IMG/VR virus record: IMGVR_UViG_3300046804_002425
Span: 1 to 20,458 of that record
DNA length: 20,458 nucleotides
Reading direction: 5' to 3' (one strand)
Origin: a virus
The notes beneath the pieces were generated by a model that saw only the letters and a program-made list of their open reading frames with translations, ran no database searches and was not told the origin of the DNA. Made by a program: the position numbers and the translations under genes. Below are positions 2,555 through 20,458 of this stretch, in pieces. Each line of letters starts with the position of its first letter. The first letter of the stretch is position 1.

Positions 2555-4585
2555 TTAGTAGATTCCTACTGCAAGAGCAAAAAATGCTCGATTATCTACA
2601 TATTGTTTATTGACTAGACTTGTAGCTGTGTTGTTTACTGTGGTGAGTGTGCCCTGTGTGATTACCGCTGTGGTTATATTGTCTGTGGTGATATTAGCTG
2701 TAGTAATATTGGCTGTGGTAATGTTGCCTGTAGTTATATTATCTGTAGTAATATTGGCTGTGGTGATGTTGGCTGTGGTCACGTTGTCTGTGGTGATGTT
2801 AGCTGTGGTAATGTTGCCTGTAGTTATAGTAGCCGTAGCAATCGTTGTTGTGCCTGTAAGAGCACTATTAGTGAACATAGTAGTCTTACTTTCGTTGGTT
2901 ACATTAGATAAACCTACACTTGATTTAGTTAGGCCACTAGTTCCGCCCGTAAATTGCACAAGGCCGCCCATAGTGACTGTTCCGTTGACGTTGATTACAC
3001 TAGGAGTCATAGTAATGCCTGTTTGAGGACTGACGCCTCCACCTAGTCCGTCGCTGGTTGCAGATCTTAAACCAATAGCCCCACTATTCACTGTAATTTC
3101 ATTGTGGTTACCGCTATAATTACAAACAAGATGTATGTCTCCTGGACCGTGAATGTTTTCTGCACTAGCTCTAATTTCTATACCATTAGCATTAACACCA
3201 TATGCTCCGTTGATACTGGCTCCTTGGCCATTATTCCATACTAGGCTAGTAGGATTAATGAATGACGTGGCTGCTGTGAGAGTCATAGTCACGCCGTCTA
3301 ATTTATCTTGTAGGATCTGTGAGTCTAAGTTATTTAAGGTGTTATCTAATATAGTGATTTTACACAATATTTGATTATATAGGGGATCACTAGGATCAAC
3401 ATCTGTTTTACGAGCATATTTTGATCCGCTGTGTGTAATGTTTATTTCTGTGATTTCGCCGTCAACAACTGTAACTGTTCCTTGAGCATTATCTCTACCG
3501 TAGCCACCATCAATCCAAGGTTCGGCAAATGTAATCACGATATTACCAGGATTATCATATAATTCATTATCGCTGCGTCTTAGAGGTGTAGCTAGTACTA
3601 CAGTAGCAATACCTCCGTTGGTAATTTCTCCTAGACTAACAACTGAAGATTCGTCATTGTTAATTAGTTCACTGACTACTAGATCACTACTACCATTAAA
3701 TGCTCGTGAGTTGACATTTATGTCATTGGTTAATTGATCAGCTGTAGCCGCTGTGCCAGTGATGCTAACATCACTTAGTGTCTGGGCCGCACTTGCTCGA
3801 TTGAAGGCCACACTGGTTGTTCCAAGATAGGCACTAGAATATACAGTTGGTTTATTAAGGATAAAACCAAGTCCGCTAGCTGCTGACCAGTCTGCTTGAA
3901 TCTGTGCCGGTTGTGTTACAGTCCAATTCACAGTAGTTGTGTAACTTTGGCTAAGACTATCTACTACTGATATAATAAGACTTCCCCCGCCGAGAGTTGT
4001 ACTAGTTCCCTGAATAGTAAGACTTGCAACCTTGTTAAGAGTAGAATTCGTCCAACCACTAGGTAGTTGGCCGCTTAGAGTAAAAGTATAAGGTGCCTGT
4101 CCGCCCTGCGGAGTAAAAGTTACAGAATAAGGAGAATTTTGTATGGCGATAAAACTAGTAGGACTTATGCTAGTTATTGGACTAGGAGTAGTGCTTGGCC
4201 AAGATATAGTTATATCATATTTTATTGTTATATCACTAGGACTAGTTGTTGAACTAGGTAATTCACTTACAGTATACCCATAGCTTACTAAAAGAGGAGC
4301 AATATAGGTATAGTCAAAGTTTGTTGTTGTAATAGTAAGACTAGTATCTCCACTGTTAGCCGCTGACAATATTTCGTCAAAGATATACTGATAATTAGCT
4401 ACAATACTATTAAAGGCCGTAGTATCCTGTTTTTTCTTATACGTCTGTACAGCACTAGTAGCTTGTGATGCTGTAAAAGGAGCGGCCGTAGTTTTTTTAC
4501 TCACAGGTCCAGCTAGGCTACCGCCCCCTAATTTACCAGATAGCTGAGCAGCTGAGGACGGCAAATCTGCAACGTTTAACGGCAT
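2555..4585 (-). CDS. tail-fibre-like virion protein with Ig-like domain and NITT repeats
   Basis: A 676-aa low-complexity, Ser/Thr-rich structural protein. The start is set at the ATG at 4585 (MPLNVADLPSSA) because GGAG lies 7 nt upstream. An ORF extension seven codons further upstream has no such site. Residues about 20-120 are helical. An Ig-like domain follows (SPYSVTFTPQGGQAPYTFTL with LPSGW, He_PIG-type). Next come typical phage-fibre elements: ADWSAASGLGFILNKPTV, then VGLSNVTNESKTTMFTN, then a run of about eleven 5-residue [A/G/D]N[I/V]TT units, and finally VNKQYVD before the C-terminus. In known fibres such a run gives a long trimeric shaft, and I infer the same here. It is divergent from the proline-rich 320-aa gene, both with late octamers. 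A host-recognition role is likely but unproven. Confidence 0.85.
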   Translation of the reverse strand: MPLNVADLPSSAAQLSGKLGGGSLAGPVSKKTTAAPFTASQATSAVQTYKKKQDTTAFNSIVANYQYIFDEILSAANSGDTSLTITTTNFDYTYIAPLLVSYGYTVSELPSSTTSPSDITIKYDITISWPSTTPSPITSISPTSFIAIQNSPYSVTFTPQGGQAPYTFTLSGQLPSGWTNSTLNKVASLTIQGTSTTLGGGSLIISVVDSLSQSYTTTVNWTVTQPAQIQADWSAASGLGFILNKPTVYSSAYLGTTSVAFNRASAAQTLSDVSITGTAATADQLTNDINVNSRAFNGSSDLVVSELINNDESSVVSLGEITNGGIATVVLATPLRRSDNELYDNPGNIVITFAEPWIDGGYGRDNAQGTVTVVDGEITEINITHSGSKYARKTDVDPSDPLYNQILCKITILDNTLNNLDSQILQDKLDGVTMTLTAATSFINPTSLVWNNGQGASINGAYGVNANGIEIRASAENIHGPGDIHLVCNYSGNHNEITVNSGAIGLRSATSDGLGGGVSPQTGITMTPSVINVNGTVTMGGLVQFTGGTSGLTKSSVGLSNVTNESKTTMFTNSALTGTTTIATATITTGNITTANITTDNVTTANITTANITTDNITTGNITTANITTANITTDNITTAVITQGTLTTVNNTATSLVNKQYVDNRAFFALAVGIY
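2661..2835 (-). repeat. 15-bp tandem repeat array in the fibre gene
   Basis: About eleven 15-bp units encode [A/G/D]N[I/V]TT near the fibre C-terminus. The variable residues run roughly G-A-D-A-A-D-G-A-A-D, giving a higher-order period of three to four units. Units differ mainly at the first and third bases, so the array is old enough to have diverged yet still keeps a perfect 5-residue register. Confidence 0.85.
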
Positions 4586-4605
4586 TATAATCTCCAACGA
4601 TAACA

Positions 4606-4613
4606 TATTTAGC
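4606..4613 (-). promoter_or_regulatory. late-promoter-like octamer (GCTAAATA)
   Basis: The minus strand reads GCTAAATA, 6 of 8 matches to the T4 late octamer, 20 bp before the fibre ATG. It is back-to-back with CATAAATA on the plus strand at 4625-4632. Confidence 0.4.
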
Positions 4614-6111: not shown

Positions 6112-7551
6112 TTATAACTCCTCTTGACCAATATTTTGCAATAATTGGCGAAGTTTACTAGATTCAACATTTGCCGAAGTTTTCTTAATTGTAATACCTT
6201 GAGTGGGGTCTGTTATTTCACCGGTAGATGCATCGACTACACTTTGACGTTGTAGTCCAGCCAAAATACTAGATCCTTTAGTGACTGGTGTATTTGAATC
6301 CGTTTGTCCATCTTCTCCTGGATCTGTAATACGCAGAGTATCAATATCAAAGTCCAAATCAATTTTCTGGCCAACTCCGCTTGATGAACGAGTTTTCATT
6401 AACTGAATTTGATATTTGCCTCGTTCTCTCATAGCGCGACTTGTAAAGATACCAAACACATTGTCTGCTGTCTGGATCTTACTCAGGCCTCCTGAAATAT
6501 GACTGTGATCAAATTCTACTTCTTCTACAGCACCACGATTTAACTGTGCGGCTGTAACTAGTACACAATTCTTTTCAACAGCTAAGTTGCGTAGTTCTTC
6601 AGATACAAACTTGTCTTTAATGAACAAGTTTTCTGCTGAAATCTTACGACTAATTGGCATAAGCAAATCTAAGTAGTCAACTAATAAAATGTCTACCTTG
6701 CGTCCTAGCTTAATCTCATATTCCTTTAAATAGCTTCTAACATCATTGGCTGTCTTACCGCTTGGCATATATTTGACCTGATACGTACCGCTCTTCTTGC
6801 CAACAATCTTAACACGCATTTCAACTTCGTCGATCTGTTTGAAGACCTCGCGTGTAGGAATCTCTGTGATCATACTGTCTACACGCATACTCACAAGTTC
6901 CTCTGAAAGTTCCAGTGTCAGGTATACTACATTTAACCCCTGTAGTGCCCAGTTCACACCTAGGTTCGCTAGAAATAAGCTCTTACCTGCACCAGATCCA
7001 CCTGCAAAGATGTTTAGCTCACCTCGATTCATTCCGCCAAACAACTTTCTATCTACTGTATCCCATCCAGTTTTAATTTGACCGTTTTTATCTTTAATAC
7101 GCATCAATCTGCTACGAGGATCAGCAAAATAGTCAGTGCCCATATCTTTATTAAGACCAACCTGAACCGCTGTCTTAACTAGATCCTCAACAGGACCATA
7201 CTCACCTTTTTCTAGTAGGTCTGCTGACTTAAGAATGGCTCGTTCAAGACCTTTGTGCCTAATAAAAGTTTCAAAGTCTTGTAGTAGCCAATCAAAGTGT
7301 TCTTCTCTAAGTTCTCCAGCGGATTGCAAGGTCATACCTGTTGCGGCACTGACGATTTCATAAGTAGGCAATACATTATGTTCAACTACATAGTCGTTGA
7401 TAAACTTAGCTGAATTTTGTAGTCTGCGATCAAATAATTCGTGATCAAAGATGCTTTGGCAACGCACAAATGTTTCTGCGTCACTTAGCATCATTTCTAA
7501 ATAAAGTTTTTGGATATCGTATCCGTAGTCTGCATTTTGTCTTGTTGTCAT
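6112..7551 (-). CDS. gp41: replicative DnaB-like DNA helicase (T4 gp41)
   Basis: A 479-aa hexameric 5'-3' helicase that unwinds the fork and partners primase gp61. The N-terminal helical domain spans about 1-135, then the RecA-like motor. Walker A is GGSGAGKS (184-191), Walker B is ILLVDYLDLL (288-297), with TAAQLN and HISGGLSKIQTADNVFGI further on, as in DnaB/gp41. The C-terminal 80 residues are a variable tail. The start is the ATG at 7551 (MTTRQNADYG). A longer in-frame ORF begins upstream but would run into the carbamoyltransferase, lacks a ribosome site, and its added residues do not look like gp41. No Shine-Dalgarno is seen. Instead TATAAT lies exactly 6 nt before this ATG, suggesting a leaderless message. 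The gene lies 19 bp after the carbamoyltransferase stop. Confidence 0.93.
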   Translation of the reverse strand: MTTRQNADYGYDIQKLYLEMMLSDAETFVRCQSIFDHELFDRRLQNSAKFINDYVVEHNVLPTYEIVSAATGMTLQSAGELREEHFDWLLQDFETFIRHKGLERAILKSADLLEKGEYGPVEDLVKTAVQVGLNKDMGTDYFADPRSRLMRIKDKNGQIKTGWDTVDRKLFGGMNRGELNIFAGGSGAGKSLFLANLGVNWALQGLNVVYLTLELSEELVSMRVDSMITEIPTREVFKQIDEVEMRVKIVGKKSGTYQVKYMPSGKTANDVRSYLKEYEIKLGRKVDILLVDYLDLLMPISRKISAENLFIKDKFVSEELRNLAVEKNCVLVTAAQLNRGAVEEVEFDHSHISGGLSKIQTADNVFGIFTSRAMRERGKYQIQLMKTRSSSGVGQKIDLDFDIDTLRITDPGEDGQTDSNTPVTKGSSILAGLQRQSVVDASTGEITDPTQGITIKKTSANVESSKLRQLLQNIGQEEL

Positions 7552-7557
7552 TGTAGT

Positions 7558-7563
7558 ATTATA
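7558..7563 (-). promoter_or_regulatory. -10 box of a predicted leaderless gp41 promoter
   Basis: A perfect TATAAT on the minus strand ends 6 nt before the ATG at 7551, so canonical spacing puts +1 on the A of ATG. The -35 position at 17 bp (TAGAGT, complement of 7581-7586) matches only 3 of 6, so a phage activator may be needed. No T4 MotA box (TGCTT) was seen. Confidence 0.5.
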
Positions 7564-7570
7564 TATTCTT

Positions 7571-9046
7571 TTAAGTAAAGACTCTAATTTTATATTGCCG
7601 TTCGAATGCCTGAGCATCATTATGATCATTAACCATAGGTTGACCTTTAATATTCAAACTAGTGTTTAATAACATAGGACATCCTGTCTTAGCGTACCAA
7701 AGTTCTAACAGTTTTCTAAAAGGCGAATCATCTTTAGGCACAGTTTGCACACGACTTGTGCCGTCTTTATGTACGATAGCAGGAAAGTTTTCAGGGTCTT
7801 TGCAAGCGGCAACAACCTGCATATACCTACTATTTTTCCAACCATTAGGCATTTCAAAATAATTGTGAACTAGTTCTTCTAAGATAGCCGGAGCAAAGGG
7901 CCTAAACTCTTGTCGTTGTTTAATAGCATTTACACGATCTTTAATATCAGGACCTCTTGGATCTGCTAGTAGACTACGATTACCTAGTGCCCTAGGACCA
8001 AATTCAGCGCGGCCTCGGGCAAGTCCACAAATTTTATCTTTGATAAGATGATTTACTATTGCATCATCATTGTTATGAAATCCCATGTCATAGCCTAAGA
8101 AAGGATTAGACCATTCAGTGTAGTGTTGCCAGTCTGGGTTATGTGCTAACACAGCGCCAATCGCACTACCTGCATCACCAGGATTAGGATAAATCCATGT
8201 GCTATCAAAATAATTGCCGGTCGACCTGTTAGCTAGACAATTAAGAGCACATCCTCCCATTAGTACAAGATTATTAGATTTAGTTAATTTTTTTCCTAAT
8301 TTTAAAGCCTCTTCAAAGTATCTTTCATATATTGCTTGCGTTGAGGCGGCCACATCAAAGTACTCTCTTACAGGAATATCTGTATTCCAATCTAGACATC
8401 CTCTATGAAGATTTTTCTCAAAGCTGAAGGTAGAAAAATTATCAACAAATGTGTGTAATATTTGTCCGTAATATTGATTTGAGTCGCCGTAAGCGGCCAT
8501 GCCCATAAGAATGTATTCTTCCTCGTTAGGCTTAAGACCAAGACGCTGTGTCATAGCACTATAGAACAGCCCTATACTATTTGGAAACCATTTGCTATAA
8601 ACTTTTTTAAGTTTTTTACCTTCAGCCTTCCATATAGTCAGAGTTTCAAATTCACCTATGGCATCGATTACAATAACACATGCTTGATCATAAGGACTGG
8701 TATAATACCCTAATGCTGCATGGCTGTGATGATGTGTGGTATACTTAATTGGACAATCAATATTGTATCGTCTAAGATACTTTTTTATATCGTTGTCAGA
8801 CCATTTCCATCCCTGACCTGCATATAATTGTCTAGCTGTTTTGAGATATGGATTTTCATACCAAATAACACGATCCGGCATTCCATAAAAGTTGTTACTG
8901 GCATAGTCAACTAATTCTTTGCATAAGTTTCTATCATTTTTAATTTTGCTAAATCTTTCGCTATGACTAGCAAACGCTAATTTTTCGTCGCAGAAAACAG
9001 CCAATGCTGCATCGTGACTATTTGCAGATATTCCCCATGTAATCAT
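7571..9046 (-). CDS. carbamoyltransferase, NodU/TobZ family
   Basis: A 491-aa member of the O-carbamoyltransferase family, which uses carbamoyl phosphate and ATP to carbamoylate sugars or small molecules. The Kae1/YrdC-like fold is shown by ISANSHDAAL (7-16), HHHSHA (105-110, the family's catalytic/metal His cluster), DAIGEFET, MGGCALNCLANR, the signature RAEFGPRALGNRSLLADPR, RPFAPAILEE, and LLNTSLNIKGQPM near the C-terminus. Family motifs run through to the end, so it looks complete. It is slightly shorter than NodU (about 560 aa), which fits phage-borne forms as I recall them. The ATG at 9046 overlaps the TGA of a 37-aa ORF (ATGA), implying coupled translation. It separates primase from helicase. 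The substrate cannot be read; cell-surface glycan, capsid sugar or modified nucleotide are options. Confidence 0.9.
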   Translation of the reverse strand: MITWGISANSHDAALAVFCDEKLAFASHSERFSKIKNDRNLCKELVDYASNNFYGMPDRVIWYENPYLKTARQLYAGQGWKWSDNDIKKYLRRYNIDCPIKYTTHHHSHAALGYYTSPYDQACVIVIDAIGEFETLTIWKAEGKKLKKVYSKWFPNSIGLFYSAMTQRLGLKPNEEEYILMGMAAYGDSNQYYGQILHTFVDNFSTFSFEKNLHRGCLDWNTDIPVREYFDVAASTQAIYERYFEEALKLGKKLTKSNNLVLMGGCALNCLANRSTGNYFDSTWIYPNPGDAGSAIGAVLAHNPDWQHYTEWSNPFLGYDMGFHNNDDAIVNHLIKDKICGLARGRAEFGPRALGNRSLLADPRGPDIKDRVNAIKQRQEFRPFAPAILEELVHNYFEMPNGWKNSRYMQVVAACKDPENFPAIVHKDGTSRVQTVPKDDSPFRKLLELWYAKTGCPMLLNTSLNIKGQPMVNDHNDAQAFERQYKIRVFT

Positions 9047-9156
9047 TTATAGATAAACGGATCTCTTTTCCGTAATTCCTCTAATCGTTTTTTAGTTTCT
9101 TTTCGTCGGTTATACCAACGCCACGGATACATAATAATATCAATTAGCTTTTTCAT
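9043..9156 (-). CDS. conserved micro-protein, 37 aa
   Basis: A 37-aa ORF: MKKLIDIIMYPWRWYNRRKE, then a charged helix ending ELRKRDPFIYK. It has an amphipathic, membrane-leaning first half and a very basic second half. The strong AGGAAG ribosome site (about 4 nt from the ATG), the 17-bp overlap with the end of primase and the ATGA overlap with the carbamoyltransferase all mark a real, translated gene. The RDPFIYK ending resembles, as far as I recall, tiny uncharacterised proteins of T4-like cyanophages. Its function is unknown. Confidence 0.7.
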   Translation of the reverse strand: MKKLIDIIMYPWRWYNRRKETKKRLEELRKRDPFIYK

Positions 9157-10126
9157 TTTCTTCCTTTTTAAACCAATTTTTAGATTTTAATTGAATTTTA
9201 AGTTTATTTGATTCGATACTACTTACAATCATATAAAGTGTATATAGCCTGCCATAATATCTTACAGAATCATTTATATCTTTAACATTATCTGGCCATT
9301 CAGGCATACTAACTGACCAACCATATTCTAATGCTTGCTCAACTGTTTTTAATCCTTCGTGATCTCTATCCGGTACTAATACTAATTCTTTGCCTAGTTG
9401 CTTTAATAGATAATTTTGACTATCTTTAATTTCCGAGCCAAGCAATGCACATCCTTCTATACTAAGTGCATCGAAAGGACCTTCACATACTATTGCATAT
9501 TTCCTATTATTTTGCTGTTTATCAAGATTAAAAACATATCCAGGTTGTTGTTCGCTTATATATTTAGGTTTGGCATCATTAACGGCTCTAGCTGTATATC
9601 CTACAACAATATTATCTTTGTAAAAAGGAATAATAACTCTATTGCTAAATCCTACTTTCGGAGTCCAATAAAAATCATAATCTTGAGGATATATTCCTCT
9701 TCCAATAAGATATTCAAGTATTGGAAGTAATTTTTCGGGAGGCGAATCTAGTAGTTCTAGTATAGAAATACTGTCAGGGGGCAGAGCTCTATGATCAAAT
9801 TTTGGTATAATACTACGTATCTCTTGGGTACTAGACTGATCAATTTTTAACGCCTCTAATCTAAGTTGATTTATTAAATCATCAGAAACATTAAACCATC
9901 TTAAAAGTTTATTCATTTTTTGGCTTAAATGTCTGCCGGGTTGCCAACTTGCCTTGAACCCACAATTAAAACAATGGTAACTTACAGCATCCCCTTGATT
10001 GAAGATTAAACCACCACGCTGACGCTTATCGTTACAGCAAGGGGCATTGAAGCTTATCCAACCACTTGGAGTGCGTTTATGTTTAGGAGGAAGATAAGAT
10101 TGTATAGTATCTATGATTAGATTCAT
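9140..10126 (-). CDS. gp61: DNA primase (T4 gp61-like)
   Basis: A 328-aa primase that makes RNA primers for lagging-strand synthesis with helicase gp41. The N-terminal zinc-binding domain has C30/C31 and C52-x2-C55 (YHCFNCGF) around an RGG (37-39), as in CHC2-type primases. The TOPRIM domain shows IVCEGPFDALSIE (E215, G216) and LVPDRDHEG (D253, D255), then VKDINDSV (281-288). Its length is near T4 gp61 (342 aa). The ATG at 10126 has no Shine-Dalgarno. A TTGACA-N17-TAAAAT promoter sits immediately before it, with 6 nt to the ATG. It would make sense for an early gene to have its own promoter here, because the gene upstream on the strand is a late virion gene. The end overlaps the 37-aa ORF. 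Confidence 0.92.
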   Translation of the reverse strand: MNLIIDTIQSYLPPKHKRTPSGWISFNAPCCNDKRQRGGLIFNQGDAVSYHCFNCGFKASWQPGRHLSQKMNKLLRWFNVSDDLINQLRLEALKIDQSSTQEIRSIIPKFDHRALPPDSISILELLDSPPEKLLPILEYLIGRGIYPQDYDFYWTPKVGFSNRVIIPFYKDNIVVGYTARAVNDAKPKYISEQQPGYVFNLDKQQNNRKYAIVCEGPFDALSIEGCALLGSEIKDSQNYLLKQLGKELVLVPDRDHEGLKTVEQALEYGWSVSMPEWPDNVKDINDSVRYYGRLYTLYMIVSSIESNKLKIQLKSKNWFKKEENEKAN

Positions 10127-10161: not shown

Positions 10162-10948
10162 ACTTTCCGGTGCTGTTGTATGGTAATTGATATTTAACTC
10201 TTAACCAAATTGCATCATTATCGTAACTGATTCCTCTAACATAAGTTTTGGTTAGCAATGAATCAACATTGGTTACTGAAAAACTATCCATATCAGTCCA
10301 TACTGTAGAACCACTAATTACCTTAGCGTCCGTAGTTTGTACGTGTACAGTTGTGTTAAGGGCGACTGGGTAGAAATCTACATTTATTGTTGTAGTTTCC
10401 GCAATATAGTTAGGATCTTTAATTTGTGCACCTTCGGAATAAAAATTACGAGGCCACGGGGCAGGTTGGCTATCATCGTCCATAAAAAGAAATGTCTTTA
10501 TAGTAATAGGAGGCAATGATGTTGGCCAAGCATTGCCAATTAAGTCAATAGTACCAGATGCTCCAAACTGCGTATCTCCGTAGACTGGATAAATTTTATC
10601 ATCAACTGTTTGATATACTATATACTTTAAAAACTGAGGCTCAACAACGTCAAATGTATCAGCGGGAATTTCTACTCTAGCAATACCAGTTAGTGTACCG
10701 TCCGGAACTACTTCGCCGTCAAACACTTCTTGTCCGTGTATGTCTAATATTTTAAAATTTAAAGTTAAATCCGTAATATCTATGCGCTGTTGACTATTAT
10801 TTCTAATATCTAGTTCAACAGCATTATCTAGACCTTTATATAATTTGACGTTTTTTTGGTACACGATTCTCCACTCCAATGGTGATAATGCCAAATCAAG
10901 ATTACACTTGATCCTGTTTGGATATAAATAACTTGAAATTTTTTGCAT
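10136..10948 (-). CDS. baseplate/virion-like protein, 270 aa
   Basis: A 270-aa beta-rich protein. The N-terminal half (WRIVYQKNVKLYKGLDNAVE, then LDIRNNSQQRIDITDLTLNF and FKILDIHGQEVFDGEV) resembles the N-terminal domain of BppU-like baseplate upper proteins found in tailed-phage particles. The C-terminal half has more beta strands and few charges. The start is set at the ATG at 10948 (MQKISSYLYPNR). A TTG six codons upstream would precede the late octamer found here. A late CATAAATA (10970-10977) supports virion-phase expression. It is divergent from the 124-aa plus-strand gene, and its 3' end carries the primase promoter. Structural role likely, exact position in the particle unknown. Confidence 0.75.
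   Translation of the reverse strand: MQKISSYLYPNRIKCNLDLALSPLEWRIVYQKNVKLYKGLDNAVELDIRNNSQQRIDITDLTLNFKILDIHGQEVFDGEVVPDGTLTGIARVEIPADTFDVVEPQFLKYIVYQTVDDKIYPVYGDTQFGASGTIDLIGNAWPTSLPPITIKTFLFMDDDSQPAPWPRNFYSEGAQIKDPNYIAETTTINVDFYPVALNTTVHVQTTDAKVISGSTVWTDMDSFSVTNVDSLLTKTYVRGISYDNDAIWLRVKYQLPYNSTGKFDKIIVRR
10923..10930 (+). promoter_or_regulatory. T4-type late promoter (TATAAATA)
   Basis: An exact late octamer, 44 bp before the ATG at 10975. It lies within the first codons of the minus-strand baseplate-like gene and downstream of an in-frame TTG at 10918, which argues for the ATG as start of the plus-strand gene. Confidence 0.6.
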
Positions 10949-10969
10949 TTGGTAATAAACCCTCAACAG

Positions 10970-10977
10970 TATTTATG
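10970..10977 (-). promoter_or_regulatory. T4-type late promoter octamer (CATAAATA)
   Basis: The minus strand reads CATAAATA, 7 of 8 matches. It overlaps the plus-strand ATG at 10975-10977. With the opposing octamer at 10923-10930 it forms an interlocked pair whose transcripts would overlap at their 5' ends. Confidence 0.55.
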
Positions 10978-11349
10978 GTAAAATTAAGAGATAATATACA
11001 AGAACAATTACCCTTTATTTCTGTCCTGCACTACGGCGAAAATGAATACGTAGGTATAATAATAAATCAAGATCAATATGTAACCAGCTTCTATGATCTA
11101 AGTATTATTAAAACCCCAGAAGAAAAATCGGGTCTGTTAGAAATAGGTGAAATTTGGTGGTGGGAATCAAACCGTCAAATTCCAATTAACATCTTTTGCC
11201 GTAAAGAAATTGAACCGTTTCGCTATGCTATTAAAACCTTCAATAGCAAAGATGTTAGAATTATATTAGGTCCAGTTGTAAACTTATTAAATTTAAGTTT
11301 AAAACGTGTTAAACGAAAGTCTGTACAGTTAGTAAGAAAAAGTCGTTAA
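10975..11349 (+). CDS. hypothetical protein, 124 aa
   Basis: Not recognised. A 124-aa protein with a compact hydrophobic core (FISVLHYGENEYVGIIINQ), a Trp-rich stretch (GEIWWWESNR) and a very basic C-terminus (LKRVKRKSVQLVRKSR) that could bind nucleic acid or a membrane surface. The start is placed at the ATG 10975 because an exact late promoter lies 44 bp upstream of it. The open frame extends to a TTG at 10918, but that lies before the promoter and inside the opposite gene. No clear Shine-Dalgarno. Its stop overlaps the stop of the convergent DnaE-like gene by 4 bp (TTAA). Confidence 0.7.
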   Translation: MVKLRDNIQEQLPFISVLHYGENEYVGIIINQDQYVTSFYDLSIIKTPEEKSGLLEIGEIWWWESNRQIPINIFCRKEIEPFRYAIKTFNSKDVRIILGPVVNLLNLSLKRVKRKSVQLVRKSR

Positions 11350-11927
11350 CTATATCCGTAGCTTAGACTTTCGCAGATAAGATTCATCTGCACCACAATA
11401 GCCACAGCGTATGCTATAGCATGTGCTTTCTTAAAATAATACTCACCATTCTCCGGTTTCTTCCATATCGTCGTCCCAATCTCGGTCCATGTCTTCCCAA
11501 CTAGATTCCTTTTTGCTGGGCGGATCATAGCGATACACATTGCCAACTCTTCTATACTTCGGGGCTTCATAGTTTTCATCAATGAGGTGTGTCCATTCAC
11601 GTGAAATAGTAAATCCGTGAAATCTTTTTGCTCCAGTAGATCCCATAGTGGTTCAGTCTCCATTAGTTGTGTTAGATGTGTTTCATCTCTTACATCTTTA
11701 TAGATACTAACATTTAAAAAATCAATCTTAAAATAACCGCGTTCTTCTGCTTCTTTATAATCTATTGTACTTATTCCGGTAATAGGATTATACGGCACAG
11801 AAGTACAATACACACCGGTATTATGCTTTTTAAAAGTATTATTTTCTTCTTTTATTGCCGCCGACACGCATTCAAAGTGTTCAAGAGCACGAGTCCTATC
11901 AGCAAAATCAATATCAATATCCGGCAT
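11346..11927 (-). CDS. miniature DnaE-like (Pol III alpha palm) protein, 193 aa
   Basis: This 193-aa protein follows the bacterial replicase alpha subunit in order but is hugely reduced. MPDIDIDFADR (1-11) matches the PDFDIDF motif bearing two catalytic aspartates. HNTGVY (35-40) matches the HAGGVVI region. GYFKIDFLN (64-72) matches KFDFLGL, with D69 at the third catalytic aspartate. LWDLLEQKDFTDLLFHVNGH, then MKPRSIEELAMCIAMIRPAK matches the stretch leading to the RPGP motif, and YYFKKAHAIAYAVAI matches the FNKSHAAAYA region near the fingers. PHP, most of the fingers, the beta-binding and the OB domains are absent. It may be an inactive relic with a new role or a very small nucleotidyltransferase. 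Its start overlaps the 64-aa gene by one base (TAATG). The family assignment is from motif order and was not tested by search. Confidence 0.7.
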   Translation of the reverse strand: MPDIDIDFADRTRALEHFECVSAAIKEENNTFKKHNTGVYCTSVPYNPITGISTIDYKEAEERGYFKIDFLNVSIYKDVRDETHLTQLMETEPLWDLLEQKDFTDLLFHVNGHTSLMKTMKPRSIEELAMCIAMIRPAKRNLVGKTWTEIGTTIWKKPENGEYYFKKAHAIAYAVAIVVQMNLICESLSYGYS

Positions 11928-12121
11928 TAGTGTTTTATCTCTGTTTCAAATAATAATAAAGGCAAGTTTTGATGTAGATACGTTGCATAATTATCTGCTT
12001 GTTCTAAGTCGTCAAAGCCTGTTAGTTTGACATAAATCGTATTATCTTCTTCGGATAGAATTACCTCCATATCTAGCTGTGTTCTATCTGGAACATTTAA
12101 ACCTGTATCTTGAGAATTCAT
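11927..12121 (-). CDS. small hypothetical protein, 64 aa
   Basis: Not recognised. A 64-aa acidic protein whose middle (MEVILSEEDNTIYVKLTGF) looks like a beta hairpin followed by a helix (DDLEQADNYATYLHQNLP). Its ATG overlaps the TGA of the zinc-finger gene (ATGA, 4 bp) and its TAA overlaps the ATG of the DnaE-like gene (TAATG), so it is translationally linked to both. It may work with one of them. Confidence 0.7.
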   Translation of the reverse strand: MNSQDTGLNVPDRTQLDMEVILSEEDNTIYVKLTGFDDLEQADNYATYLHQNLPLLLFETEIKH

Positions 12122-12813
12122 AAATTAGCCTCCCTGACTACATTCTTAACTAGATCTACATCAAAGGTCTTTTTCTTAAAGAGTTTTGACCAATGTATGG
12201 GGTCTATTATACTACTTATAGCAGAAAGCTGATCATCTCTGAAACTAGCTAACATTTCTTTACCGCTTTTACAATTTAAAATTAACCACGGACTTATTTT
12301 ACCGTCTTTAACATCATAAACTGCCCTATTAGTACTTACATACTTAAAATAGTGATTCCACGCACTATTATTTTCTTTAGCCCACGATTCCATGTGTGCA
12401 ATACTTCGTTCGAGGGCTGTTTCTACAGCTTCTGTATGTATAAGTTCTAAAACATATTTTTCATACAGTTCGTCTCTTGTCCAATGATCGAGCTTCACAC
12501 CGCTTCTTACAATCCAATCAATGAAATTATCCGGATATAAGGGATTAACATTGTGTACATAACTACCAAATTTAACAAAGGCCAGATAGTAGGGGCTTTG
12601 AGCAAATTCTGCATAATTTTTATCTTTATCTGCCTTTTGTGTAAGTCGGTAAAAGCGATTATAGGTATGGAATCCTATAATAACATGCTTCTCGTCTTTA
12701 GCTAGATGCCTTCGCTTTTGTTCGCAAATATGCACAGCAAGAGTTTTTTCCTGCATGAATTCTTTATTACAATACTGACATTCGTAGGCTTTATTCACAT
12801 GTAATTTTAACAC
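12118..12813 (-). CDS. conserved phage protein with N-terminal zinc finger, 231 aa
   Basis: The N-terminus holds a zinc-finger-like motif: C12-x2-C15-x12-H28-x-C30, with H36 as an alternative ligand, preceding a basic KRRH. The remaining 190 residues (YNRFYRLTQKADKD, HWTRDELYEKYVLELIHTEA, ISPWLILNCKSGKEML) are helical and belong to no family I can name, though I recall similar proteins among conserved T4-like aquatic-phage genes. The start is a GTG that shares its first base with the TAG of the upstream gene (TAGTG), with no Shine-Dalgarno, typical of reinitiation. A DNA-binding or replication-accessory role is inferred from the finger and the neighbours only. Confidence 0.75.
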   Translation of the reverse strand: MLKLHVNKAYECQYCNKEFMQEKTLAVHICEQKRRHLAKDEKHVIIGFHTYNRFYRLTQKADKDKNYAEFAQSPYYLAFVKFGSYVHNVNPLYPDNFIDWIVRSGVKLDHWTRDELYEKYVLELIHTEAVETALERSIAHMESWAKENNSAWNHYFKYVSTNRAVYDVKDGKISPWLILNCKSGKEMLASFRDDQLSAISSIIDPIHWSKLFKKKTFDVDLVKNVVREANL

Positions 12814-13289
12814 TATTTTAATATTTTTTCAATTTGTTTATCTTCAAAACCATAATCTTGTGCTAGTCTTTTAGCTTCGGGCACTGACATAAGCTCAGCC
12901 ATAAGTTCTAGTTCATCGGTTTTACGATCGGGATATAATTCTTCTAGTAATTTAAAAATTTTATTTTGAGACTTTTTCTTTTTAAATCCAATCCATTCAT
13001 GGTAATAGATTTTATCTCCGCCTTGGCCGCACATACAGAGTAATTGCCAAAGTAACTTAGGATGCTTTTGTAAAGAAAACCAATGTTTATTAAAATATTC
13101 ATTTACGACAAGCACAAAGTATTCTTGTGTTTCTCTACTTGAGGATTTTACATTACTAATATATCGATTTAAAATAAAAAATTCATTTTTCAATGCCTTG
13201 CGCTGTTCGTCATCCATATCGTCCCACAGTTGGGTAAACTTCATATCAACAGCAGCTAGTTTTTCTTTTAGTTCAATTTTTTCGCCCAT
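12813..13289 (-). CDS. conserved phage protein, 158 aa, possibly gp62-like
   Basis: A helical 158-aa protein: FFILNRYISNVKSSSRETQE (37-56), HPKLLWQLLCMCGQGGDK, EWIGFKKKKSQNK, then an acidic helix and a basic C-terminus (DKQIEKILK). The FxxNRxxS element, the central tract and the lysine-rich segment recall the small clamp-loader subunit gp62 of T4-like phages, but the similarity is faint, and gp44 and gp45, its usual partners, are not in the window. I regard it as a conserved protein of unknown function with gp62 as a hypothesis. It starts 17 bp inside the preceding 90-aa gene. Confidence 0.7.
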   Translation of the reverse strand: MGEKIELKEKLAAVDMKFTQLWDDMDDEQRKALKNEFFILNRYISNVKSSSRETQEYFVLVVNEYFNKHWFSLQKHPKLLWQLLCMCGQGGDKIYYHEWIGFKKKKSQNKIFKLLEELYPDRKTDELELMAELMSVPEAKRLAQDYGFEDKQIEKILK

Positions 13290-14253: not shown

Positions 14254-15714
14254 TTAGTTCCAATCAACCTTTTCTAGTGTAAAGGGGTATTTCGCCTCCT
14301 TATAAAATTTCTTCCTCTGCGTAAGATGACGCTTGGCGTATTTACAGGTTGATGTGACATCCCAGATCTGAACGAAGTCTTTGTCTTCGGCTTTTCTAAT
14401 ACCTCGCCCAATTGATTGTATAACCCTCGTAAAGCTCTTTCCGGGCTCCACAAGAACCAGATTAAAAATCCTAGGGATATTAATACCCACAGCGGCCACA
14501 CCATAAGTCGCCACAATAATCTTGTTATCCACAGTTTTGACTTCGTCATATTCACTTTTCCTGTCTTTTGTTTTTACTTCGCCTGATATAAACACAGAGC
14601 CTGGTATATTATCTATAATAAATTTGCCTGTTTCAATCCTATTAACTAGGACTAGGGTATTCCCACTGTTCCCAATACCATCAACCATCTTAGATATGAA
14701 TGTCATACGATCTTTGTTTGTTACAAGATATTTGTATTCTTCTGCGTATGACTTAAACTCTGGTAAGTCGATTAACTGTACAACATTAACATGACAGTTA
14801 GATAGGATGCCTTTTTCTTGTAATTCGTGTGCATGTACCTGATGTACTACTGGGCCAAGACTAGCAAATATCTGCTCAAATTCAAAATCTTCTTTAGGTA
14901 CAGTACCAGTTAATCCCCAACGAATAGGCGCATTATTAAAATTTTGTGTCAGTAGATTGCGAAGCACAGTGGCCTTGGCCATGTGTACTTCATCTACCAT
15001 AATTGTCTTAACACCATCAAGAAATTCTGCAAGCGTAAGAATTTCATGTTCGCTGTTTTTGCTTTTCTTGTCTAAAATATTAAGACTTTGCCATGTAGCA
15101 ATAGTGTGAGTTTTATTCAATTCTTTACGATCACCATAGTACACACCTACATCTAAACCGCAGTTGATAAAATCTTCTTCTGTCTGTTCGACAAGACTTT
15201 TATTAGGTACAATGGTAAATGTTCTACCATAGGGCTCGCATAACTTGGCCAAAGTTGCTGTGGTAATTGTCTTACCAAAACCAGTGGCAATTTCTTGTAG
15301 ACATTGAGGATTTTCAAGAAATTTATTAATCACTTCTACTTGGTCATCGCGTAGTCTAATAGGTTCGCCTGCGTATCTGTGTCCAGTTGGCCAAGTTTTA
15401 TCTCCCCAGAAATCTTCTTTGATGCGTGGAAATTCTAATTTAATAGGCTCACGGAAATCTTCAATTTCTCTGACATCTACACCACTATTTTCCAGGACTT
15501 CTAGTATCTTAGGTAGTTGGCTGACAAAGCCGTTTCCGCCCATGCCGAATAAGGTTACCGAGCCATCCCAGCGACCAAGTTTATATGCGGGACGATAACG
15601 AGCCGTAGGATCTTCATACTTAAAGGTGTTTGACAACTTCCTGCGAATTTCCACAGGAAGCCCCTCTAATTTAATGTTTACTTCGTCGCGTATTACTAAC
15701 TTACAGGATGTCAT
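14254..15714 (-). CDS. uvsW: UvsW SF2 helicase
   Basis: A 486-aa RNA/DNA helicase (T4 UvsW, about 500 aa) that unwinds R-loops and branched DNA and moves replication from origin-dependent to recombination-dependent mode. An N-terminal domain of about 110 residues includes YKLGRWDGSVTLF. Then come the helicase motifs: Walker A ATGFGKT (143-149), the DEVH box (241-244), LTGTVPKE (motif III), ATYGVAAVGINIPR and the arginine-finger motif QSIGRGIRKAEDKD in the last fifth. GAGG sits 6 nt before the ATG at 15714. The start overlaps the 391-aa gene by 14 bp, so UvsW shares that gene's transcript. Confidence 0.95.
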   Translation of the reverse strand: MTSCKLVIRDEVNIKLEGLPVEIRRKLSNTFKYEDPTARYRPAYKLGRWDGSVTLFGMGGNGFVSQLPKILEVLENSGVDVREIEDFREPIKLEFPRIKEDFWGDKTWPTGHRYAGEPIRLRDDQVEVINKFLENPQCLQEIATGFGKTITTATLAKLCEPYGRTFTIVPNKSLVEQTEEDFINCGLDVGVYYGDRKELNKTHTIATWQSLNILDKKSKNSEHEILTLAEFLDGVKTIMVDEVHMAKATVLRNLLTQNFNNAPIRWGLTGTVPKEDFEFEQIFASLGPVVHQVHAHELQEKGILSNCHVNVVQLIDLPEFKSYAEEYKYLVTNKDRMTFISKMVDGIGNSGNTLVLVNRIETGKFIIDNIPGSVFISGEVKTKDRKSEYDEVKTVDNKIIVATYGVAAVGINIPRIFNLVLVEPGKSFTRVIQSIGRGIRKAEDKDFVQIWDVTSTCKYAKRHLTQRKKFYKEAKYPFTLEKVDWN

Positions 15715-16926: not shown

Positions 16927-17685
16927 TTACTTGCGTTCTATATCTTCTTCAACACAATCATCGCCATATTGTATTTCTATAATTTTACAAGGAATTTCAA
17001 ATGGATTTCTTAATTGATGCCATTCCTTTTTAGGGACAAAATGGTGTAGATGTTCTTTAAGCATGACAATAGGCATATGATAACCATTTTCTAAGGTGCT
17101 AAAAACATCGCAAGCACCTTGTGTTACAAACCAGAATTCGTTTCTTTTAAAATGCCTTTGTAGACTTAGACTTTTACCCGGATCGATAGTGATTTCTTTC
17201 ACCTTTGTACCACTAATAGTGTACAGGACTCTGTAAAACCCCCAAGGTCTTTTAATTTTTGGAGATTTCCACTCATTAAGAATCCAACTACTTGAATTTT
17301 TCTTATCAGTGCCGCCTACACCAAATTTAAAAATGAGATTGTTATCAATCATATCCATTTCTGGTATATTATCCGGTCTTCGATCTCCCCCATTAGCGAA
17401 AATTAAAGTAGCATCTGGATAGTGGGCCCTGACTTGCTGAATAAAATGCCTAGCAGAGTCATCGGAATCATCAAAAGTATAGACTTCGTCAACCATGGTA
17501 AGATTGTTAAGAATACACAGTCTCTCATTCCACGGCATAAAGGCCTTACCTTTCTTTCTTTCTAACCATTCGTCACTGTTTAGGCCAACAATCAGCATAT
17601 CACCCAGGGTACTAGCCTCTTTGAAATAGCTTATGTGACCGGAATGAAGGGGATCAAACCCGCCTGTAACTAAAACAATTTTCAT
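16927..17685 (-). CDS. nucleotidyltransferase-cupin fusion protein
   Basis: A 252-aa two-domain protein. Residues 1-about 125 are a cytidylyltransferase-like domain: VTGGFDPLHSGHISYF with the HxGH motif at 14-17, GLNSDEWLERKKGKAFMPWN (the K/R and substrate-loop region), NERLCILNNLTMVDEV, and FANGGDRR. It resembles the nucleotidyltransferase half of HldE/RfaE or glycerol-3-phosphate cytidylyltransferases. From RPWGFYR (146) the protein becomes a cupin like the C-terminal domain of type II phosphomannose isomerase (GKSLSLQRHFKRNEFWFVTQ, ligands probably Q176, H178, E183, with HHF and WHQLRNP). This points to nucleotide-sugar or glycan synthesis. The ATG overlaps the TGA of the UvsY-like gene by 4 bp, an odd place for sugar metabolism. 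Confidence 0.85.
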   Translation of the reverse strand: MKIVLVTGGFDPLHSGHISYFKEASTLGDMLIVGLNSDEWLERKKGKAFMPWNERLCILNNLTMVDEVYTFDDSDDSARHFIQQVRAHYPDATLIFANGGDRRPDNIPEMDMIDNNLIFKFGVGGTDKKNSSSWILNEWKSPKIKRPWGFYRVLYTISGTKVKEITIDPGKSLSLQRHFKRNEFWFVTQGACDVFSTLENGYHMPIVMLKEHLHHFVPKKEWHQLRNPFEIPCKIIEIQYGDDCVEEDIERK

Positions 17686-18140: not shown

Positions 18141-18389
18141 TTATTCTTCGTCAACGTCATAGTCCCAGTTATCTTCTTCGTCTTCGTCTTCTTCAACACC
18201 CTCGTCGAGATAATACTCAATGGCGCTGTCGAGATTTTCATCAAACCCTGTAGCAGATTCCATGATTTTATCGCTAATTCCATGGTCTGCTAACAGGTCC
18301 ACATATCTTTCTGCCGCTTCGGCTATGGACTTCTTGTCTACATACTCTTTAAACAACATCCAGATATCTGCAATTTGATTTTCATTCAT
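18141..18389 (-). CDS. acidic conserved phage protein, 82 aa
   Basis: An 82-aa very acidic protein: MNENQIADIWMLFKEYVDKK, then SIAEAAERYVDLLADHGISD, then DSAIEYYLDEGVEEDEDEED and a C-terminus of mostly Asp/Glu (about 15 of the last 20 residues). I recall the same architecture next to uvsX in other T4-like aquatic phages, function unknown. The acidic tail could mimic DNA or contact a recombination protein. It starts 8 bp inside the end of uvsX. Confidence 0.8.
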   Translation of the reverse strand: MNENQIADIWMLFKEYVDKKSIAEAAERYVDLLADHGISDKIMESATGFDENLDSAIEYYLDEGVEEDEDEEDNWDYDVDEE

Positions 18390-19437
18390 TTTCTACTGGC
18401 TCCTCAATTTGTTCAGTTATAGTTTTATTTTTATGATTGGGGAAATCTTCCATAATCATATTTAATTTATCATCTTTCCAGTCTTTTCTGTAGTATAGAT
18501 GTTCTTCACCATGACTGTCAACAAACTTGAGTCTATTTCCTTGTTGCACCAATAGTCCTTCTTTCTCAAAAAGGTCAACGAGTCCACTGTACGGATTCAT
18601 ACCAGTTTCGTATGGAATCTTGATTTGTACAGTTTCGAAAGGCTTAGCATAACGTGTTTTCATGATCTTACATGCAGCACGAATACCATTGACTTCTGAT
18701 GTTTTATTACCTTCGTCGTCTTCTTTCAACTTCAACTTCTTCATTGCAACCACGATAGAAGATGCGTAAATGAAGCCTTGTCCGCCTGAGATTTTATCGT
18801 CTGGATCAAACATATCTTGCGAAGCGTATGTGTGATTTGTAGCCACCAACCCGACGTTATAATTACCAAACACGTTAACACAATTACGAACCAGCGCCGT
18901 AAGTGCTTTAGGCTTTCTACCCATATCACCTTTTAGATCTCCTGCTTCAAATTGATTAACATCTGTCGGGGTCAACAACATGCCTAATGAGTCAATTACA
19001 AACAAGACCTTAGGACGTTCTTCCATAGCCTTGTATTCTTTCATAAACTCATTGATTGTTTTGGCAACATCGTCAATCATTGCCATGTTAAGTTTAAGAA
19101 GCTTTTCTTCACTAGTATCTACGCCTAATGCTTTAAGCCATTCTTCGTCAAGAGCATTTTCGCTATCGACTAGGATAACATAGATCCCTTGTTCTTGTGC
19201 ATTACGGATTAAATTACCTGAACAAATGTAACTCTTACCTGCACCACTCTCTCCGGCAAACACAGTTACCTTACCTAACGGCACTCCTTTATGGAAATCT
19301 CCGCTAATAAGATAGTTTAGTGTGTAGTTGCCTGTACTAACCCAATCGGTCGGATCGTTAAAACCTACACCAAGACCGTCAATTGATTTAGTAAGAGTCT
19401 TTCTAAATTTACTCAAATCAAATGCTTTAGAGGCCAT
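18382..19437 (-). CDS. uvsX: UvsX RecA-like recombinase
   Basis: A 351-aa strand-exchange protein that forms filaments on ssDNA and drives recombination-dependent replication. Near the N-terminus is a typical UvsX motif (DWVSTGNYTLNYLISGDFHK). Walker A is GESGAGKS (62-69). Walker B is VLFVIDSLG (144-152). The loop TNHTYASQDMFDPDDKISGG (about 205-224) lies where L2 is expected. Its length fits UvsX (T4 has 391 aa). The ATG shares one base with the stop of the 63-aa gene (TAATG), and GGAG lies about 10-12 nt upstream. Confidence 0.96.
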   Translation of the reverse strand: MASKAFDLSKFRKTLTKSIDGLGVGFNDPTDWVSTGNYTLNYLISGDFHKGVPLGKVTVFAGESGAGKSYICSGNLIRNAQEQGIYVILVDSENALDEEWLKALGVDTSEEKLLKLNMAMIDDVAKTINEFMKEYKAMEERPKVLFVIDSLGMLLTPTDVNQFEAGDLKGDMGRKPKALTALVRNCVNVFGNYNVGLVATNHTYASQDMFDPDDKISGGQGFIYASSIVVAMKKLKLKEDDEGNKTSEVNGIRAACKIMKTRYAKPFETVQIKIPYETGMNPYSGLVDLFEKEGLLVQQGNRLKFVDSHGEEHLYYRKDWKDDKLNMIMEDFPNHKNKTITEQIEEPVENE

Positions 19438-19698: not shown

Positions 19699-20458
19699 TT
19701 ATTGCTTACGATTACGAATCATAGCAAGAATGTCTTCAGCGCGGCTTCCGCCTGCTGGTGCAGATGCTTCTTGCTTAGGAGCAGCAGGTGCTGTCTTAGT
19801 AACAGCTGCCGGCTCATCATCATACTCGTCGTCAGACTTAGCAACAGCCTTAGGAGTATTAGGGTCACCTGTAGCAGAGCTCATGCCTGCTGGTTTGAAA
19901 TATTGACCCCAGCGATCCATATCAAACGGCTCACCATCAACTGATGCTTCAAACATTTCTTTGATAACTTTAAGTTCTACATCGCCTGGCTTCTTAGGTA
20001 AGTAGTCTTTCAAATTAAACAAACCGTGCTTCTCAATGTTGGCTGTTTCTTCGTCACTTAATGGACGAGTACGACGGCTCCACTTTGATGTAGAGTAGTC
20101 AGCATAACCACCTTTTGAAGTCTTAATAAGTTTAAAGTCAACGCCGTTAACAGCGTCAGTTGGCAAGTCATCCATTTCTGGATCAAGCAAAGCACTCTTG
20201 ATTAGAGTAAAGATTTGAGGACCGATAATGAATCGACGGATTGCGTTTTCTGGCTTTTCAGTTTCCTTTAAGCCATCTTCAACAACAAATCCTTGGAAGA
20301 TGTATGAACGCTTCTTCCAATACTTACGACCCATGTCTTCTAGAGCAGGGTCTTTAAACCAACCACGCACCTCTGAAAGGATTGGGCAAGTTTCGCCATA
20401 CATTTCCATACACGGAACGTTAACGATTACTTGTTTTGAGTCAGTGGAGCCCTTAACA
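19699..20458 (-). CDS. gp32: gp32 single-stranded DNA-binding protein (partial)
   Basis: The 5' part is cut by the window edge. About 253 C-terminal residues are present, reading on from the right edge as VKGSTDSKQVIVNVPCMEMY. The core shows CPILSEVRGWFKDPALEDMG, RKYWKKRSYIFQGFVVED, PENAIRRFIIGPQIFTLIKS, GGYADYSTSKWSRRTRPLSD and FNLKDYLPKKP, the pattern of gp32 of T4-like aquatic phages. A flexible Ala/Pro/Asp-rich linker follows (about 60 residues), then the tip GGSRAEDILAMIRNRKQ, which in gp32 proteins recruits replication partners. gp32 coats ssDNA and interacts with UvsX, UvsY, polymerase and primase. It heads the recombination operon. Confidence 0.9.
   Translation of the reverse strand, partial: VKGSTDSKQVIVNVPCMEMYGETCPILSEVRGWFKDPALEDMGRKYWKKRSYIFQGFVVEDGLKETEKPENAIRRFIIGPQIFTLIKSALLDPEMDDLPTDAVNGVDFKLIKTSKGGYADYSTSKWSRRTRPLSDEETANIEKHGLFNLKDYLPKKPGDVELKVIKEMFEASVDGEPFDMDRWGQYFKPAGMSSATGDPNTPKAVAKSDDEYDDEPAAVTKTAPAAPKQEASAPAGGSRAEDILAMIRNRKQ

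Follow-up and report, generated by a model that had tools for sequence, protein, structure and literature searches.

Split versions of the catalytic subunit of bacterial DNA polymerase III (Pol III alpha), reduced to a minimal form, have been described in the group 2.2 jumbo phages, and the two halves have been predicted to reconstitute an enzyme (Iyer et al. 2021; PMC7824862). A literature search across open-licence papers found no experimental test of a split Pol III alpha. A truncated 'DNA polymerase III alpha' had been noted earlier in phage CBB (CBB_328; PMC5259590) and in phage Atu_ph07 (gp316; PMC6102473). Both of these proteins are the N-terminal half (hereafter, N half) of the split system; the relevant passages of the two papers name the N half only, with the catalytic aspartates residing on the C-terminal half (C half).

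Here we analyze a further member of this family, from an uncultivated phage. The stretch of DNA examined (hereafter, the window) is the 20,458-base virus record IMGVR_UViG_3300046804_002425, which contains a T4-like jumbo-phage replication module including the genes for a single-strand DNA-binding protein, UvsX, UvsW, several conserved uncharacterized proteins, the C half, primase, and a DnaB-type helicase. The system does not differ in kind from the published one: it belongs to the same family and, in the related genomes, consists of two separate proteins encoded by distant genes and coexists with a family B DNA polymerase (PMC7824862). What is added here is the exact split point, the counts of invariant active-site residues, a tally of pairing across genomes, separate structural mapping of the two halves, and an argument from the contact surfaces that have been lost.

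A DnaE-related protein with an intact aspartate triad

The C half is encoded at positions 11346..11927 of the window (minus strand) by an open reading frame (ORF) of 193 amino acids that begins with MPDIDIDF and corresponds to, approximately, residues 400-781 of Escherichia coli DnaE, with the thumb and the mid-fingers left out. A first-pass annotation, made from the sequence alone, described the product of this ORF as a DnaE-like protein, and profile searches bear this out. The protein matches the phage family phrog_11778 ('DNA polymerase'; E=1.2e-72, residues 3-187 aligned with profile positions 8-194 of 197) as well as the full-length phage DnaE profile phrog_405 (E=1.5e-10), and the Pfam fingers domain PF17657 is detected below the cut-off (17.7 of 22 bits, E=0.0024). 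Among solved structures, the best sequence-profile matches are DnaE rather than PolC. Taken alone, plain phmmer (E 0.19) and the Foldseek comparison with the PDB (0.006) are weak, and the argument is carried by the profile, family, and VIA-align results. Relatives of the C half are present in 63 phage records, including Atu_ph07, Phosso, the PA5oct group, RaK2, 121Q, GAP32, CBB, SCTP-2, XacN1, and Slicko01, and in at least 555 viral contigs, so that this is not a chance ORF. Nine contigs from assemblies labeled as bacterial carry the C half as well; at least eight of the nine are metagenome bins (Neomarinimicrobiota, Pelagibacter, Verrucomicrobia, and others), and these contigs are probably misbinned jumbo phages.

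The motifs of the C half follow the order of those in DnaE, as the first-pass annotation had proposed. The PDIDIDF motif (11904..11924, minus strand) comprises the first residues of the protein, and D3 and D5 correspond to the metal ligands D401 and D403 of DnaE. It is followed by HNTGVY (11808..11825, minus strand), opposite HAGGVV in the palm of DnaE, with the longer stretch KKHNTGVY aligned to GKHAGGVV (about residues 507-514). The K67-I-D69 motif (11721..11729, minus strand), equivalent to K553-F-D555, contains the third catalytic aspartate. IRPAK (11511..11525, minus strand) is the counterpart of FRPGP in the fingers (about 638-642), and FKKAHAIAY (11409..11435, minus strand) is aligned to FNKSHSAAY (756-764), so that Y173 matches Y764 and H169 matches H760, the proposed steric gate of DnaE (PMC8485763). 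These assignments come from local hhalign alignments, the first 13 residues of the C half being out of place in the global mode.

In an alignment of 81 distinct C-half sequences, with pairwise identity to the window protein down to about 34%, 13 positions are invariant, namely, D3, D5, D7, H35, G38, P45, K67, D69, R136, P137, K139, H169, and Y173. All three catalytic aspartates singled out in the first-pass annotation are thus retained in every sequence, and the C half displays the palm with the catalytic Asp triad that is expected of a bacterial Pol III alpha. The GS motif is absent from this polypeptide, which starts at PDIDIDF; the motif is located on the separate N half. The C-half gene evolves under purifying selection, with dN/dS values of 0.06-0.13 between the window and its closest relatives, which are approximate given that synonymous saturation is approached in some pairs, although the direction is clear.

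Structural models, built with AF2 only from the window and its relatives in viral contigs, agree with the sequence comparisons. The C-half model (pLDDT 84, pTM 0.66), in which this chain alone holds all the predicted palm strands, was aligned by VIA-align over residues 1-190 to residues 400-781 of E. coli DnaE with Z 7.5, rmsd 5.0, and 183 aligned residues, a modest score that leans on the agreement with the sequence evidence. DnaE and PolC structures account for all 12 top matches, followed by an unrelated protein with Z 3.2. The DnaE palm predicted in the first-pass annotation was thus recovered by both profile search and structure prediction. PolC (PDB 3F2B, 9QRN) shares the C-family palm (Z 5.6 when matched to the C half and 7.4-10.1 when matched to the N half), but the Zn-binding and exonuclease inserts specific to PolC are absent from the phage proteins.

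The N half and the break in the palm

When the 11 isolate genomes were searched with the profile of the DnaE NTPase/palm domain (PF07733), a second, separate partial match, covering profile positions ~16-98 of 260, was found in all 11. The respective genes (for example, 121Q gp56, RaK2 ORF162, Atu_ph07 gp316, and Paride_0087) encode proteins of 169-182 amino acids that belong to phrog_11127 and end in ...GRGSSVASYVLFLIG...YELDFDEFLN; in the isolates inspected, they are located one to a few kilobases upstream of the clamp-loader gene. The proteins represent the stretch of DnaE that immediately precedes the C half (~203-393), including the GRGS motif (hhalign E=1.7e-9), and the four residues of this motif are invariant in all 57 distinct N halves. 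At least 274 relatives were found with a query taken from the window's own relatives; the N half of Phosso, used as a query, yielded no matches, its sequence being too divergent.

The N-half model (pLDDT 89, pTM 0.70) maps with its residues 61-168 onto DnaE 273-393, with Z 8.3-9.2 for the E. coli structures and a best value of 10.1 elsewhere, and all 15 leading structural matches are C-family polymerases. The structural maps of the two halves adjoin at the split point, with no overlap. For the first ~60 residues of the N half, the model shows a small alpha/beta region (pLDDT about 90) that has no clear counterpart among solved structures.

The position of the split is uniform. A conserved end of the EFLR type is found in 49 of 49 distinct N halves from viral contigs, and seven of the eight isolate sequences are similar, the exception being Slicko01, in which the protein ends with ...ELSKEM. 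The DnaE sequence across the break is '...FERFLN-PERVS-MPDFDVDF...', where FLN (393) marks the end of the N half and MPD (399-401) the beginning of the C half, so that the palm is broken within a loop of about six residues. The C-family palm is thus divided such that the triphosphate-binding motif is on one chain, and the metal-binding aspartates along with the steric-gate histidine are on the other one.

Compared with E. coli DnaE (PDB 2HNH), the phage proteins share the palm with D401, D403, and D555, K553, the RPGP element, and the helix with the H760 steric gate, the GS motif being contributed by the partner, but comprise two chains and lack large parts of the enzyme. With the limits of the thumb, the tip of the fingers, and the tau and clamp contacts taken from the literature (PMC4703070), the missing regions are most of the PHP domain (1-280), the thumb (433-509), most of the fingers segment 643-752, with the tau contact (657-667) inside it, the tip of the fingers (811-928) with the clamp motif (920-924), the OB domain, and the tail; the alignment of the C half to 400-781 skips the thumb and the mid-fingers. 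The pair retains the nucleotidyltransferase core together with the dNTP-contact helix. The first-pass estimate that some 80% of the enzyme is missing is accurate if the C-half gene is considered by itself, although a second gene elsewhere in the genome encodes some of the missing region.

Co-occurrence of the two halves with a family B polymerase

The two halves occur together in 11 of 11 isolate genomes and, with phrog_11127 as the N half, in five of five related contigs of 180 kb or longer, one of which, 270 kb in length, has a C half about 74% identical to that of the window. The view of the C half as a lone fragment, taken in the first-pass annotation, is therefore not supported, given that the adjoining stretch of the palm, with the GS motif, is encoded by a distant gene in all these genomes. 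Shorter related contigs contain neither the N half nor the family B polymerase gene, as would be the case for fragments. Of the 60 C-bearing phage records listed by tblastn, 58 recur among the N-bearing records listed; in one of the others, Slicko01, the N half is found with a hidden Markov model (HMM), which leaves PP728206 (109 kb). The 20-kb window itself contains no member of phrog_11127, and the record is too short to represent the whole genome of the phage.

We also considered a GS-containing half that would be frameshifted relative to, overlapping with, fused to, or adjacent to the C half. The N-half HMM produced no match in 80 C-half loci with up to 6 kb of flanking sequence, nor did the reverse search in 80 N-half loci, so that no such arrangement was seen across the 160 loci. 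The Pol III epsilon subunit was likewise rejected as a constant third component: a DnaQ-type RNase_T domain was detected in eight of 16 genomes and in none of the five long contigs nearest to the window.

A family B polymerase gene, which is not found in the 20-kb window, is present in each of the 11 isolates and in each of the five long related contigs (180 kb or more). The first-pass annotation had found a DnaE fragment unexpected in phages of the T4-like type, which use a family B polymerase; the two evidently coexist. In three window-like contigs, the exo I (FFDIE) and catalytic (YGDTDS) motifs of the family B enzyme are intact. The presence of this complete-looking polymerase implies that the minimal Pol III is an addition to the replication apparatus rather than the replicase. 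In Atu_ph07 and Paride, the family B polymerase itself is contained in two open frames, which suggests that some phages of this kind have this gene, too, in a divided or interrupted form.

Predicted activity of a proposed two-chain enzyme

The findings described above are best accounted for by a two-chain, minimal catalytic core of the C family (Pol III alpha) formed by the C and N halves and functioning as an auxiliary polymerase or nucleotidyltransferase, a reading to which we assign a probability of about 0.72. We infer the physical association of the halves, the catalysis, and the role from the combined comparative evidence. Under this scheme, the N half would provide the helices with which the palm begins, along with the triphosphate-binding GRGS motif, whereas the C half would contribute K67, the shortened fingers with the steric-gate histidine, and the palm sheet that carries the three metal-binding aspartates. 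Association of the halves would re-form the palm cut between DnaE residues 393 and 400 and create a single nucleotidyltransferase site. Lacking the thumb, the tip of the fingers, the PHP domain, and the clamp-binding part, such an enzyme would probably act distributively and in an auxiliary role alongside the family B replicase, with nucleotides added during repair, the filling of gaps, or synthesis linked to recombination. Because deletion of the thumb removes the main grip on the duplex, templated synthesis by the pair would not be assured. Tentatively, the thumbless core might be active in a non-replicative capacity, such as the filling of gaps, synthesis primed by recombination, or 3' addition without a template. 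Should the halves reconstitute an enzyme, it would be among the smallest natural cores of a bacterial replicase, with about 360 amino acids in two pieces compared with 1160 in E. coli DnaE, and a ready-made minimal Pol III catalytic module; this phage lineage would then keep polymerases of the bacterial and the archaeo-eukaryotic types together.

A related but rather unlikely alternative is that the halves form an active enzyme that is not a templated DNA polymerase but, for example, a template-independent nucleotidyltransferase tailing or repairing DNA or RNA 3' ends or acting on another substrate. Such an activity would fit the invariance of the metal ligands, the GRGS motif, and the dNTP-contact residues in proteins that have nevertheless lost the duplex-holding thumb and the tip of the fingers (PMC4703070), and the DnaE palm indeed has the Pol-beta-type nucleotidyltransferase fold (PMC7824862). 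However, the histidine that rejects ribonucleotides (H760) is retained as H169 in 81 of 81 sequences, favoring the use of dNTPs, and the C-half gene lies within a replication module with primase, helicase, and UvsW.

The first-pass annotation suggested, instead, a decoy for the clamp or the replisome. More broadly, the C half could be a subunit with no catalytic activity that serves a structural or regulatory function, or else a decoy binding host tau, clamp, or DnaE, which would be compatible with the extreme truncation and with the separate, intact family B polymerase. We consider this improbable: the three aspartates, K67, R136, and H169 are invariant over the 81 sequences, and the partner gene with the GRGS motif is present in every sufficiently complete genome tested. 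The loss of the DnaE surfaces that contact tau and the clamp argues specifically against an inhibitor or decoy of this kind and for a minimal catalytic core.

The other first-pass suggestion, a minimal nucleotidyltransferase, comes close to the likely truth, except that two chains appear to be involved, as already published (PMC7824862). That the C half would act as a single chain, with no need for a partner, is very improbable despite its holding every predicted strand of the palm, since the GS motif is missing from it and found in the co-occurring N half. Finally, the idea of a polymerase relic, that is, decay of a dnaE gene that had been captured and then disrupted by mobile elements, which could draw on the known occurrence of split genes in these phages (the two-frame family B polymerase), is hardly tenable, being contradicted by purifying selection (dN/dS about 0.1), the uniform split point, the diversity of the hosts, and the synteny in most loci.

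Gene neighborhood of the C half

The surroundings of the C-half gene were compared across 91 loci, with some of the absences reported below caused by contig ends. Directly downstream, on the opposite strand, is the convergent gene phrog_11637 (10918..11349, plus strand), found in this position in 85 of 91 loci; in the window, its 3' end overlaps the 3' end of the C-half gene by 4 bases. This appears to be a long-kept tail-to-tail pair in an otherwise one-strand block. On the upstream side, an ORF of 64 amino acids (11927..12121, minus strand) shares one base with the C-half start codon and is less conserved (28 of 91). It is followed by two conserved genes on the minus strand, phrog_11058 (12118..12813; 88 of 91), the product of which shows a weak match to a C2H2-like zinc finger at the N-terminus, and phrog_11758 (12813..13289; 89 of 91). 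These two proteins are possible partners of the C half.

The remaining recognizable genes of the module are on the minus strand as well. Based on the annotation of homologous genes, 14254..15714 encodes a UvsW-type helicase (82 of 91 loci) and 6112..7629 a replicative helicase of the DnaB/gp41 type. The primase gene (9140..10126) is part of the replication module in 79 of 91 loci. The UvsX/RecA-like recombinase (18382..19437) was recognized from the sequence by eye, and the single-strand DNA-binding protein (phrog_1192; 19699..20409) is of the gp32 type by position.

Several other genes of the window (all on the minus strand) are of separate interest. Between the primase and the DnaB-type helicase, 7571-9046 encodes a carbamoyltransferase (Carbam_trans_N and Carbam_trans_C domains) that is present in 56 of the 91 loci, none of them from isolates. 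The product of 16927-17685 is a fusion of a cytidylyltransferase-like domain with the C-terminal cupin of mannose-6-phosphate isomerase, and 2555-4606 encodes a large structural-like protein that has no Pfam match and ends with degenerate 'TANITTDNITT' repeats.
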